Source: a virus. From it: a DNA stretch of 43,950 nt. The notes below the pieces were generated by a model. The model made no database searches and had not been told where the DNA came from. It worked only from the letters and a program-made list of their open reading frames with translations. Shown piece by piece: positions 6,722 to 29,124 of this stretch; the stretch's first letter is position 1, and each line of letters opens with the position of its first letter. A program made the translations under genes and the position numbers. The stretch is taken from positions 1 to 43,950 of IMG/VR virus record IMGVR_UViG_3300042010_000092, one strand, 5' to 3'.

Positions 6722-6760
6722 TTAAACCATTTAAAGGCCTATATTACGAATGTGAATCTA
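6722..6760 (+). promoter_or_regulatory. Early-type promoter, tripartite
   Basis: Upstream block TTAAACCATT (6722), 8-base spacer, core TATATTAC (6740-6747), then GAATGTGAAT. The same three blocks recur at 7613, 8221, 9828 and 12018. TATATTAC matches the early-promoter motif described for phage phiKZ. It drives the gene at 6782. Confidence 0.75.
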
Positions 6761-8220: not shown

Positions 8221-8260
8221 TTCAAAACGATTTAACCACTATATTACAACTGTGATAATC
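8221..8260 (+). promoter_or_regulatory. Early-type promoter, tripartite
   Basis: TTCAAAACGATT (8221-8232), 7-base spacer, TATATTAC (8240-8247), then AACTGTGATAAT. It lies immediately after the stop of the previous gene and upstream of the 8286 gene. Confidence 0.75.
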
Positions 8261-9237: not shown

Positions 9238-9248
9238 TCAGCGCAATC

Positions 9249-9280
9249 TAATGAGAGGGATCGCTCCGGTCCCTCCATTA
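9249..9280 (+). terminator. Hairpin after the 9067 gene
   Basis: TAATG + bulged A + GAGGGA, 9-base loop, TCCCTC + CATTA: 11 paired bases. No T-run. It ends 26 bases before the macrodomain gene start and may terminate the upstream unit or shape the leader. Confidence 0.45.
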
Positions 9281-9306
9281 ATCCAACTTTCATGGGAGCC
9301 GGTTCA

Positions 9307-9780
9307 ATGGCTGAATTTATAATCGGTAAAGATGTCTTCAAAGAACCTGGAGATCTTTACGTCGTTACAGTAAATACAATCGGAGTGATGGGTGCAGGCG
9401 TTGCCAAGTCTTTCGCTGAGAATCACCACGATCTGTTTTTACGCTACAAACATGACTGCAAGATGAAGTCTATCACAATCGGTCATCCAGCTTTATACGA
9501 AGGCACAGACGGTAAGAAGTACCTAATGTTCCCGACGAAAGAGAACTGGAAGAATCCATCGACTTATGAATACGTTGCACTGGGCCTGCAGTGGATCGTT
9601 GACAATATCGGTGAAGATGAAGATCAAGTCAATCCTGCATGGAAACTAGTATTGCCTCCGCTCGGGTGTGGTAATGGTGGTCTAGACTTTGATATCGTTT
9701 CAGAGATGATTGAAGAAGCATCCCAAAAGATTCCTAACAAGGTGATCGTAGTCTATCCACCTTGGATGAGCAACAAATAG
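9307..9780 (+). CDS. DarG-type macrodomain protein (ADP-ribose hydrolase)
   Basis: 157 residues, a single macrodomain. Visible motifs: VNTIGVMGAGVAKSF at about 22-36, FPTKENWKNPS at 76-86 with the candidate catalytic Lys, and LPPLGCGNGGLDF at 116-128. These match the DarG/TARG1-like branch, which removes ADP-ribose from nucleic acid or protein. GGGAG at 9294-9298 fits ATG 9307 rather than the in-frame ATG at 9292. There is no DarT toxin gene beside it, so it is not a visible toxin-antitoxin pair; reversal of a host DarT-type defence is an attractive inference. Domain call is firm; substrate is not. Confidence 0.85.
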   Translation: MAEFIIGKDVFKEPGDLYVVTVNTIGVMGAGVAKSFAENHHDLFLRYKHDCKMKSITIGHPALYEGTDGKKYLMFPTKENWKNPSTYEYVALGLQWIVDNIGEDEDQVNPAWKLVLPPLGCGNGGLDFDIVSEMIEEASQKIPNKVIVVYPPWMSNK

Positions 9781-9788
9781 TGATACGC

Positions 9789-9819
9789 CATAAGTGCTTC
9801 CCGTGGGGAAGCCTTTATG
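9789..9819 (+). terminator. Palindromic hairpin with CATA/TATG flanks
   Basis: CATAAG T GCTTCCC, loop GTG, GGGAAGC CTTTATG: a 7 bp core and a 5 bp outer stem (CATAA/TTATG) split by a 2-base internal loop. It follows the macrodomain stop and precedes an early-type promoter. No T-run. Confidence 0.65.
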
Positions 9820-9827
9820 CCGTGACA

Positions 9828-9867
9828 TTAAAACGATTTGAATCCCTATATCACAATCCTGATAATC
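9828..9867 (+). promoter_or_regulatory. Early-type promoter, tripartite (core variant)
   Basis: TTAAAACGATT (9828-9838), 8-base spacer, TATATCAC (9847-9854), then AATCCTGATAAT. The core differs by one base from TATATTAC. Drives the operon from 9887. Confidence 0.7.
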
Positions 9868-18050: not shown

Positions 18051-18635
18051 ATGTACAACAAAGTAGAGCTTGCCAAAGCGTTCTGCGTCGGTGCCCATAC
18101 TGCGGTTGGGCAACTGCGTAAATATGTGCTGACTGACTATCATGAACACCCACTTAATGTGCTGTTCATTTTAAACCAAGCGGCTAACGTCGATGATAAC
18201 ATGCGGTGTGCTACTCTGCTGCATGATGTACTCGAAGACACTCAGACTAAACGTGACCACATCGAAGATATGTTCGGTAGTGATGTCGCTCAACTGGTCG
18301 AGGAACTTACAGACGTCTCGAAACCTGAAGATGGGAATCGGGAAATACGTAAAGCAATCGATCGGGCTCATACAGCTCAAGCTTCACCACGCGGTAAAAC
18401 AATCAAGCTGTGCGACCTGATCGATAACGCTGGTAGCATTCAAGAACATGACGCTAAATTTGCCAAGACCTACATGCATGAGAAACAACTCCTTCTCGAA
18501 GTACTTAAAGAAGGTGATCCGGCACTCTATGCAAAAGCTTGCAAAATAGTAGAAGAGTATTTTAAGGAGAACCACGATGCTGAACCTGTTAAAGAAGAAA
18601 CTGTCCGAGTGGTTCCCTGGCACTGCCGCAGCTGA
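18051..18635 (+). CDS. MESH1/SpoT-type HD hydrolase
   Basis: 194 residues. The HD-superfamily residues are in the expected order: AHTAVGQLRKY (15-25), H33 in YHEHP, H58-D59 in LLHDVLEDT, ELTDVSK (85-91) and D122 in KLCDLIDN. Positions match small alarmone hydrolases of the MESH1 type almost exactly, so hydrolysis of (p)ppGpp (or NADPH 2'-phosphate) with a Mn ion is the likely reaction. No synthetase domain. The last 59 bases overlap the next gene; the 18 extra residues look like a by-product of that overlap. Substrate is inferred from the family. Confidence 0.8.
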   Translation: MYNKVELAKAFCVGAHTAVGQLRKYVLTDYHEHPLNVLFILNQAANVDDNMRCATLLHDVLEDTQTKRDHIEDMFGSDVAQLVEELTDVSKPEDGNREIRKAIDRAHTAQASPRGKTIKLCDLIDNAGSIQEHDAKFAKTYMHEKQLLLEVLKEGDPALYAKACKIVEEYFKENHDAEPVKEETVRVVPWHCRS

Positions 18636-26898: not shown

Positions 26899-29124
26899 AT
26901 GAATCTCGATTCACTGTTTAAACATAATGCGCAGAAGCAATACACTCGCTTCTCGATGGAAGATTTCCTCGGCGCACTGGAAGCTGAACAAAACTACGGC
27001 GACTCCGTCCTGGCTAAAGGTAAAGGCCTGGTAGAATTCATCAGCCAAGAAAACTTCGGTGACATCACTGAAGCCGGTCGTACCACTGCTGGCCAGATGT
27101 ACACCGACCTGGGCGCGACAATGAAGAAGTTCGGTTTCGAACACTTTGAAGTCAAAACCGGTAAAGCCTACATCACCGAAAACCAACAGCGCGCTGCTAC
27201 CGTTGCTGCTATCGCTTGCGCTGACCCAGAAGCTTATAAGAAAGCTCTGCGTGCAGTATCCAAGGAAGTAGTTTCGAACGAAGACCACGTTCACAACGTA
27301 CGTCACGAGTTCAACGGTCCTGCTGGTTCCCTGCAAGTATTCCAAGACCACCTGGGTCTGGAAAACTACAACGAAAAATCTCAGCGTGACTTCCGCGTCG
27401 TAACTGTTGGTTACAACCTCGAAGCTTCCCGTCAGGATGAGTTCGCTGAACGTCTGTACCCTACTACCGTTATCAACCCAGTTGAAGGTGGTGTTGTTCA
27501 GGTTCTTCCTTACATCGCTGTAATGAAAGACGTTTACCACGCTGTTAGCGGCCAGAAGCTGGCTAACGAAGAAGTGAACATGGTAGAAGCTTACCGTGAT
27601 CCGTCGATCCTGGACGACAACTGCACCGACCTGATCCCTGCAGTCGATCCAGATGGCACCAACCTGAAGTTCTTCACTGATCCTGCTGTTGTTCCGCACC
27701 ACACAGTGACCAACGAACAGAACATGACCATCACTACTGGCCCACTGAAGCCAAACGTGAAGATCGACCTGATGGGTAACTCGAACGCCAACCTGCTGAT
27801 CAACAAAGGCATGCTGGACATTTCGGATACCATCGATCCAAGTGGCCGTCTGAAAGCGCTGTACGTCAAGTTCGACGGTAAGGTTATCCGCTTCGTTGTT
27901 GACCGTCTGCCTACCGCTGTATTCCAGCCTGGTCTGATCGGCGACACCCGCCTTGCTAAACTGGACTTCATCACTGAAGACCTGGTTGTTGGCGAAGACA
28001 CCAAAGCCATCGACGGTACCATCTCTGCCAACGTGCAAGAGCTGATCAACCGTAAGTGGACTGCTCGTATCAGCGTATCGTTCAACGGTTCGGTTTCGAC
28101 CTCCCGTGGTGATGCTCGTTACGGCGCAACCGGTATTGAAATCGACCGTATCGTCGACGAAGACCGTAAGCTGATCTCGATCGAAACTGGTGATGGTGCA
28201 GCTCTGGTTGCAGCTATCGGCGATCTGGAAGTAGTCGGCTACGACCTGGACCTCAAGTTCACCAACACTAACCGCCGTCAGCGTGGTCACCTGTTGCAAA
28301 CTCGTGCTATCCAGTTCCGTCACCCAATCCCAATGCACGCTCCGGTAACTCTGCCAATGTCCACCATGGACGAGCAAGGCCCAGGCGACGTTGTGAAGGC
28401 ACTGACTGTCAACACCAACATCCGTAACAGCAACAACGCTGTTAAACGTCTGTTGAACTACCTGGCACAACTGAAAGAAGTTGTTGGTAATGGTTACGAC
28501 CGTCCGAAGTTCGGCGCTGTTGAAGGTGCTCTGAGCATCATGATGCGTCCTACCTACCGTGAAGGTTCGCTGCACCTGCCTGACCACATCGATACCCTGA
28601 AGTCTCAGGATCGCTGGCAGGACGTGTGCTCGACCATCCTGAACTTTGCTAAAGGTATTCTGTTCCCGGCTTACCGTGAATCGAACATCGAAGCAGCTTT
28701 CCGTGTGATCTCGGGCAACCAAGACGAGAAGCCAATGTTCATCTTCGCTACCGACAAAGAAATCGGTAACTACCTGATGACTCAAGGCGACGACCGCACT
28801 CTGGGCGCAATCCTCGAGTACGACCTGGTAACTACCAACAACGAACTGTTCGATGGTAAACTGGTAATCGTCCCTACTCGTAAGAACCCAACCGAAAACG
28901 ACATCCTGTCCTTCGGTCAGTTCTTCTACGTATCGACCGTGATCGCTGACCTGCCTATCACTCGTGGTGGCCAGCAAGTGACTCGTGAGATCGCAGCTGT
29001 TCCGTTCAACCTGCACGTTAACAACATCCCATTCGCAATCAACCTGACCATCACTGGTCTGGAAGAAGTGATGGGCAAATCGCAGTGGAACAAACCACTG
29101 ATCGATGCTGTTAAGGCTCCTTGA
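26899..29124 (+). CDS. Major capsid protein, phiKZ type
   Basis: 741 residues, close to the length of phiKZ gp120, with the same style: helical N-terminal 150 residues rich in A, E and K, then a long beta-rich HK97-type body. Codon use is the most uniform in the window, as expected for the most abundant protein. In phiKZ the prohead protease removes about 160 N-terminal residues after an S/A/G-x-E motif; here GLE at 153-155 is the best-placed candidate. GAAGGAA upstream. The TGA stop is followed by 28 open in-frame codons (see next entry). Confidence 0.85.
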   Translation: MNLDSLFKHNAQKQYTRFSMEDFLGALEAEQNYGDSVLAKGKGLVEFISQENFGDITEAGRTTAGQMYTDLGATMKKFGFEHFEVKTGKAYITENQQRAATVAAIACADPEAYKKALRAVSKEVVSNEDHVHNVRHEFNGPAGSLQVFQDHLGLENYNEKSQRDFRVVTVGYNLEASRQDEFAERLYPTTVINPVEGGVVQVLPYIAVMKDVYHAVSGQKLANEEVNMVEAYRDPSILDDNCTDLIPAVDPDGTNLKFFTDPAVVPHHTVTNEQNMTITTGPLKPNVKIDLMGNSNANLLINKGMLDISDTIDPSGRLKALYVKFDGKVIRFVVDRLPTAVFQPGLIGDTRLAKLDFITEDLVVGEDTKAIDGTISANVQELINRKWTARISVSFNGSVSTSRGDARYGATGIEIDRIVDEDRKLISIETGDGAALVAAIGDLEVVGYDLDLKFTNTNRRQRGHLLQTRAIQFRHPIPMHAPVTLPMSTMDEQGPGDVVKALTVNTNIRNSNNAVKRLLNYLAQLKEVVGNGYDRPKFGAVEGALSIMMRPTYREGSLHLPDHIDTLKSQDRWQDVCSTILNFAKGILFPAYRESNIEAAFRVISGNQDEKPMFIFATDKEIGNYLMTQGDDRTLGAILEYDLVTTNNELFDGKLVIVPTRKNPTENDILSFGQFFYVSTVIADLPITRGGQQVTREIAAVPFNLHVNNIPFAINLTITGLEEVMGKSQWNKPLIDAVKAP

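Follow-up and report, generated by a model that had tools for sequence, protein, structure and literature searches.

A macrodomain gene of the DarG branch occupies a fixed position in the phiKZ-like Pseudomonas phages and stands there with no DarT toxin beside it. We tentatively propose, at a confidence that falls a little short of even, that its product is a stand-alone early ADP-ribosyl hydrolase, which would clear base-linked or similar host-made ADP-ribose marks. The observations behind this proposal are the fold, the branch, the catalytic residues, the conservation, the early-type motifs, and the absence of a transferase of the tested families. The phiKZ copy, gp104, had an earlier annotation as a macro domain protein; the DarG-branch placement, the counts of toxin-free architectures, the charge contrast, and the co-occurrence with NARP1-like genes are new from this analysis.

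The macrodomain gene

The window, which is the whole stretch of DNA analyzed, is a 43,950-base fragment of a phiKZ-like Pseudomonas phage close to phages D6 and Psa21, to which its nucleotide identity is ~79% across the aligned portion. It carries a PhiKZ_MCP capsid gene at 26899. The macrodomain gene is complete within the window, lying at 9307–9780 on the plus strand (stop codon at 9778–9780) and encoding 157 amino acids. The longest frame begins at an ATG at 9292; nearly all phiKZ-like relatives start at the residue matching 9307, and a GGGAG at 9294–9298 is placed 8 nt 5′ of the ATG at 9307. Pairwise dN/dS was 0.050–0.070 against four close relatives, with dS saturated in the other two of the six comparisons, indicating that the gene is under strong purifying selection. 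Since it is also conserved, the open reading frame goes far beyond what would be expected by chance, and both its reality and its exact coordinates were confirmed.

Placement of the protein in the DarG branch

Next, we analyzed the family membership of the protein by profile, sequence, and structure comparison. It matched Pfam Macro (PF01661) with 30.4 bits (cut-off 22, E = 4e-7), PHROG 335 at 1.6e-36, PADLOC DarG at 1.2e-36, and NCBIfam antitoxin_DarG (NF048014) at 2.4e-38 over profile positions 7–150 of 338. DarG was the sole family matched in NCBIfam and PADLOC, and the NF048014 score of 132 bits was below the 250-bit cut-off, so that the protein does not qualify as a full DarG. The top sequence matches in the PDB were DarG of M. 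tuberculosis (6.9e-24), DarG of T. aquaticus (3.4e-21), and a Thermosipho DarTG fusion (1e-17); TARG1 reached only E = 0.13. An AlphaFold2 model built from 40 aligned relatives (pLDDT 95.2, pTM 0.90) compared with macrodomain structures at Z 15–24 overall, consistent with membership of the macrodomain superfamily. Four DarG entries came first (Z 22.4–23.7 at 1.5–1.7 Å), followed by TARG1 (Z 18.9), Poa1p (Z 18.7), and the remaining entries (≤17.8). TARG1 therefore trails DarG by 3.5–5 in Z and by many orders of magnitude in E-value, and the window protein belongs to the DarG macrodomain branch, ahead of the TARG1, Poa1p, and MacroD types. The original prediction had placed a DarG/TARG1-branch macrodomain at 9307–9780 and had suggested a comparison of its predicted structure with DarG; both were borne out, as PDB sequence and fold rank DarG first, the model matches DarG entries best, and the catalytic lysine is kept.

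The likeness to DarG (PDB 5m3i, 5m3e, 5m31; NF048014) consists of the macrodomain fold and the Asn, Lys, Trp, and Gly-loop residues. In contrast, DarG is ~340–390 amino acids long with a C-terminal DarT-binding half, whereas the window protein ends at residue 157; the phage protein also has no DarT partner, and its rim is neutral where that of DarG is basic.

Catalytic residues and surface charge

The motif residues in the window protein are Asn23, Lys78 (equivalent to Lys80 of TaqDarG), Trp81 (equivalent to Trp83), and a Gly120-x-x-x-Gly124 loop. Asn23, Lys78, and Trp81 were unchanged in all 16 aligned phiKZ-like proteins, and the catalytic lysine was invariant across 40/40 aligned proteins. 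As for the Lys84/Asp125 dyad of TARG1, the comparison covered the Lys84 position, where the lysine is retained. It has been reported for TaqDarG that K80A is inactive, that N22A is strongly impaired, that K29E impairs the protein, that Trp83 is suggested to stack with the base, and that the macrodomain by itself rescues cells from DarT (PMC5179494). The position of TaqDarG Lys29 is Ala30 in the window protein, and Ala is likewise found in 28 of the 29 DarGs near a DarT-HD toxin. The phiKZ-type proteins were acidic, with a median net charge of −6 and an active-site rim of 0, whereas canonical DarG macrodomains were basic (net charge +3, rim +4). This acidic surface, compared with the basic one of DarG, argues against a single-stranded DNA substrate.

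Conservation and genomic position

Sequence orthology and synteny both identify the window gene as the counterpart of phiKZ gp104 (PHIKZ104, NP_803670.1), and its position is the same in phiKZ, phiPA3, 201phi2-1, and D6. The products of phiKZ gp104, phiPA3 gp108, and 201phi2-1 gp167 showed 57–67% identity to the window protein at similar length, and their genes share one site, with the genes for virion proteins (gp101/102) on one side and the region of the DnaB-like helicase and major capsid genes on the other, so that sequence divergence is the only difference. The closest proteins were those of an uncultured relative (93% identity) and then of phage D6 (85%). By mass spectrometry, two neighbors of 201phi2-1 gp167 are annotated as virion proteins, and gp167 is not.

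In a tblastn search of 50,697 phage records with a limit of E ≤ 1e-5, 257 contained a relative. For occupancy, we used 34 PhiKZ_MCP-type phages, 10 of which were picked as gene carriers and 24 regardless of the gene. PF01661 was present in 27/34 and was not found in EL, OBP, Aeromonas D6, pEt-SU, N1M2, CR5, and XC32 (7/34). Among the 24 gene-blind picks, the gene was found in 10/10 phiKZ-like genomes from IMG/VR (taken from 12 capsid loci, omitting L011, a 23-kb fragment, and L015, which duplicates phiPA3) and in 7/14 named, mostly more distant phages. Together with phiKZ, phiPA3, 201phi2-1, and D6, which are among the gene-carrier picks, the IMG/VR genomes form a set of 14 phiKZ-like Pseudomonas phages, all 14 of which carry the gene. 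In Goslar, RAY, PhiEaH1, SPFM4, KpLz-2_45, pVa-21, and the kuravirus SU10, the gene is kept and the annotated neighbors differ; because the neighbors vary in these distant carriers, no partner gene tracks the macrodomain.

Synteny and occupancy thus rule out the label of accessory orphan that the gene had been given. Among the phiKZ-like phages, the gene is fixed and syntenic, and its phiKZ copy has been both annotated and knocked down (PMC12571901). As for the early accessory block in which it was said to lie, the early-type part stands by motif, through the enrichment described below, and the accessory part does not.

Absence of DarT and comparison with cellular relatives

Two DarT profiles searched against the window in six frames gave no match at E ≤ 10, in agreement with the earlier statement that no DarT adjoins the gene. 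DarT (PF14487) was present in 0/34 of the related phages, and two DarT queries matched one and the same record among the 50,697 phage records, that of Thermus phage phiMa. PF03496 ART and SIR2 were found in 0/14 phiKZ-like phages, as was KptA, which occurred in 3/34 phages (RAY, KpLz-2_45, and Centimanus). With KptA in 3/34 phages and in none that is phiKZ-like, a KptA-linked RNA-repair role for the macrodomain was rejected. We also observed that KptA is accompanied in KpLz-2_45 (W08) and Centimanus (W19) by a further, weaker match to Macro ~7–8 kb away, and the two may be a separate RNA-repair pair. NADAR, an alternative eraser, was found in 2/34 phages at E ≤ 0.01, one of them above the cut-off.

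We then compared the flanks of cellular and viral relatives. In the best 80 of at least 571 cellular relatives, a flanking DarT-family frame was present in 67, and in 65 of them it was directly upstream on the same strand; the 67/80 count is partly so by construction, because the two DarT profiles were seeded from 26 of the same loci. Frames of at least 200 amino acids numbered 70 among these best 80 of at least 571. Pfam analysis of eight cellular upstream proteins called five DarT, one HD domain alone, one methylase subunit, and one unmatched protein, and an HD domain was present in four of the five DarTs, in one case below the HD cut-off. As for viral relatives, 80 of 189 were analyzed. Fifty-five were complete short proteins, and DarT was within 6 kb in 0/55; the other 25 were long or truncated where the contig stops, with DarT in 22/25 and the remaining three starting at or near the contig end. 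By these counts, the stand-alone eraser and the antitoxin tied to a toxin fall into two cleanly separated architectures. In a quick tree with no outgroup, the phiKZ-like proteins grouped in a clade of their own (17 rows, SH-aLRT 99), outside of which lay two clades of DarG.

Several side observations were made on these loci. Many of the cellular DarGs nearest the phage protein are paired with an upstream DarT-HD fusion of ~445 amino acids (L113–L146), compared with 214 amino acids for canonical DarT. DarG-like macrodomains also open very long frames of 1,245–1,425 amino acids in L117, L120, L145 (cut by the contig end), L151, and L157. The window itself encodes a stand-alone HD-domain protein at 18051–18635 on the plus strand, which is RelA/SpoT hydrolase-like (HD_4, 8.4e-13; spoT_relA, 5e-18), possibly an alarmone hydrolase; the matching block of D6 and Psa21 also encodes an HD-domain protein. 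A tie between the window's HD-domain protein and the HD portion of the toxins paired with the nearest cellular DarGs was rejected, as blastp against one toxin gave E = 14.

Promoter motifs and RNA hairpins

The window contains five copies of TATATTAC, which we take to be the early element of phiKZ (that of the virion RNA polymerase), where 0.79 would be expected, and five or more copies were seen in 0/100 shuffles. The copies are at 6740, 7630, 8240, 12036, and 30012, all on the plus strand, and by motif only these early-promoter-like elements would mark the small-gene block as early-type. An upstream box of the ATT-AAA type accompanies 4/5 copies, including that at 8240..8247 (plus strand), which lies 1067 bases before the macrodomain gene and is presumed to start an early transcript that carries it. 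The same upstream box precedes a one-mismatch copy, TATATCAC, at 9847..9854 on the plus strand, 66 bases past the stop codon. Across 17 loci, TATATTAC was found within 1,500 bases upstream of the macrodomain gene in 16, and an exact copy was located 57–83 bases past its stop in seven. The early consensus of AR9 has been given as AAATATATATTAT-6N-G, and early transcripts of phiKZ are reported to start 6 nt past the element (PMC5312081).

Two conserved RNA hairpins flank the gene on the plus strand. The hairpin in the gap before it (9244..9281, z −4.8) showed compensatory changes in 5/13 pairs and was shared by 10 of the 17 loci; among the other seven, one is a copy of phiKZ, most have a different upstream hairpin, and L043 has none. 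The hairpin right after the gene (9786..9822, z −3.6) is terminator-like, ends in CTTTATGCCG, and showed compensatory changes in 6/7 pairs in 15 of the 17 loci, the alignment omitting L046 and L048, which nearly or exactly duplicate 201phi2-1 and phiKZ. Across loci, this hairpin ends in CTTTATG or similar. The TATG within CTTTATGCCG resembles the phiKZ late-promoter core as quoted in PMC5312081.

Co-occurrence with probable NAD+ salvage genes

A NAMPT-family gene was present in 9/14 phiKZ-like phages, including D6, Psa21, and the relative with the 94% identical macrodomain, and in 2/20 other phages of the sample. It follows a PRPP-synthetase-like gene in both loci inspected (L245:16-2736; L247:4396-7170, phage D6). 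The L245 protein scored 354 bits against the Namat structures 9W5X/9W5W and ~154 against human NAMPT, and the two aromatics of the adenine clamp by which Namat differs were kept in the three proteins examined (Phe/Tyr at 392 and Tyr at 396). As judged from these sequence matches, the PRPP-synthetase-like and Namat-like pair has the make-up of the NARP1 pathway, in which Adps and Namat are reported to rebuild NAD+ from free ADP-ribose (PMC12774641). The NARP1-like genes are seen in relatives of the window and not in the window fragment itself. NAMPT-family genes were found in 11/27 macrodomain-bearing and 0/7 macrodomain-less phages, a difference that is post hoc and ignores relatedness (one-sided p = 0.046) and on which we base no conclusion. 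Because phiKZ, phiPA3, and 201phi2-1 all carry the macrodomain and gave no NAMPT-family match, the two genes are not obligate partners.

Free ADP-ribose produced by NADase defences offers no bond for a macrodomain hydrolase, so that the second role originally suggested, the processing of ADP-ribose from NAD-consuming defences, would need a coupling step, such as NARP1. An early eraser that frees ADP-ribose from host-written conjugates, with Adps-like and Namat-like enzymes then restoring NAD+, would form one such chain, which we consider a doubtful proposition. A comparable case is RyDEP, a phage enzyme described as freeing ADP-ribose that NARP1 can convert to NAD+ (PMC13232231, preprint); RyDEP differs in being a RyR-domain glycosidase acting on cADPR isomers, whereas the macrodomain analyzed here is tied to NARP1 by co-occurrence only.

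Discussion

Antisense knockdown of gp104 during phiKZ infection of PAO1 is reported to leave PFU/CFU unaffected and to lower ChmA weakly; the authors class gp104 as non-core and predict a benefit under other conditions or in other hosts (PMC12571901). Among the open-licence PMC papers retrieved, we found no activity data for a stand-alone DarG-like macrodomain of a phage. For the class, reversal by DarG, TARG1, and SCO6735 has been reported both for thymidine-ADPr (PMC9411070) and for uracil-ADPr in RNA (PMC13036486).

Most firmly, we infer that the phage protein is an ADP-ribosyl hydrolase with the lysine chemistry of DarG and TARG1. The macrodomain would be made early in infection, and its conserved cleft would hold the ADP-ribose part of a conjugate. 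Lys78, at the DarG/TARG1 nucleophile position, would act with Asn23 and with Trp81 at the exit, so that the ribose C1″ link is cut and the modified partner is freed. Because the C-terminal DarT-binding domain of DarG is missing, the protein would remove the mark and would not block the writer enzyme. The likeliest substrates would be thymine- or uracil-type marks of ADP-ribose on nucleic-acid bases, or a conjugate of similar chemistry made by a host transferase. The writer is probably the host, because searches of the phiKZ-like phages for the families DarT, PF03496 ART, SIR2, and KptA found none. The gain may be that early phage replication, transcription, or translation continues in hosts with ADP-ribosylating defences.

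Two known proteins illustrate the parts of this proposal. SCO6735 of Streptomyces coelicolor is likewise a stand-alone eraser of the DarG/TARG1 class, described as having no cognate DarT in the genome and as rescuing cells from DarT (PMC9411070); in contrast, it has no catalytic lysine and is structurally further from the phage model (5e3b, Z 15.5). AdfB is likewise an early phage gene product that counters DarT, but it is a 77-amino-acid DarT binder and not an eraser (PMC11481870).

Catalysis, substrate, and a counter-defence role are the parts of the eraser reading that we infer, and the substrate is its weak point, with cytosolic RNA, proteins, and small molecules also candidates. In favor of the reading are the DarG-first ranking in PDB sequence and fold, the intact Asn23, Lys78, and Trp81, the class biochemistry of thymidine-ADPr and uracil-ADPr reversal, the absence of a phage transferase of the tested families, retention in 14/14 phages, dN/dS, the upstream early-type motif, and the weak ChmA effect. 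The acidic surface, the normal plaques on PAO1, and the single darTG entry in the table of one P. aeruginosa survey (PMC10855318) make DarT-modified DNA less likely to be the principal target. Against the reading as a whole are Ala30 at the Lys29 site, the absence of the gene from 7/34 PhiKZ_MCP phages, and the phage nucleus, which should shield phage DNA from DNA-targeting defences (PMC12931631). Reversal of DarTG-type marks, as originally predicted, is a plausible function, and that earlier interpretation is partly supported.

The remaining argument against the eraser reading comes from a survey of viral NAD+/ADP-ribose systems, which reports that 56% of jumbo phages have Macro domains and whose authors argue that phage Macro domains in general mainly target low-molecular-weight ADP-ribose derivatives (PMC9503650). 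The protein would then act on ADPr-1″-phosphate, acylated or ribosylated ADP-ribose, or immune signals, not on macromolecules, and would clear them or turn them into plain ADP-ribose for reuse by phage or host pathways. The acidic rim of the phiKZ clade agrees with this, as do the NARP1-like genes that use free ADP-ribose, with the NAMPT family in 9/14 phages, and the rank of Poa1p, a known ADPr-1″-phosphatase, as third structural neighbor. However, DarG, which is known to act on DNA, stands clearly nearer than Poa1p by fold and sequence, KptA as the usual source of ADPr-1″-phosphate is found in none of the 14 phages, and Trp81, the base-stacking candidate in DarG, is kept in 16/16 proteins; we thus regard such small substrates as possible but unlikely. 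Removal of ADP-ribose from acidic protein residues, which would undo host modification of phage or host proteins, could be expected from the lysine chemistry shared with TARG1, the second-best structural family. Given the distance at which TARG1 follows DarG, and since the literature searched revealed no protein-modifying defence against these phages, we consider a TARG1-like activity improbable.

The other two alternatives assume no catalysis or no function. Macrodomains bind ADP-ribose, and the ADPR pulse in jumbo-phage-infected PaAvs5 cells is reported to fall within minutes (PMC12931631), as would be the case if the protein bound ADP-ribose or its derivatives and lowered their free level with no cleavage. 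The invariance of the catalytic lysine in all 40 aligned and all 16 phiKZ-like proteins is unexpected for a pure binder, and we give this explanation little credence. DarG-branch ancestry with DarT missing would also be seen in a functionless remnant of a captured DarTG pair, but the low dN/dS, the fixed position in 14/14 phiKZ-like phages, the ChmA effect upon gp104 knockdown, and, in the quick tree, a separate clade that is not a recent DarG offshoot had already disfavored it, and it is very improbable.

If the protein is an eraser of host-made marks, nucleus-forming phages would have in it a fixed and early gene for counter-defence or repair, which would represent a macrodomain route against ART-type defences, distinct from that of the DarT-binding AdfB. 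The eraser reading also offers a testable reason for the weak loss of ChmA upon gp104 knockdown. In PaAvs5 cells infected with jumbo phage, NAD+ and ADPR are reported to return to base level within minutes by a route described as unexplained (PMC12931631), and the macrodomain together with NARP1 is a candidate for this return. Should the recycling chain hold, a jumbo phage would both undo an ADP-ribosylation attack and regain the cofactor spent in it.
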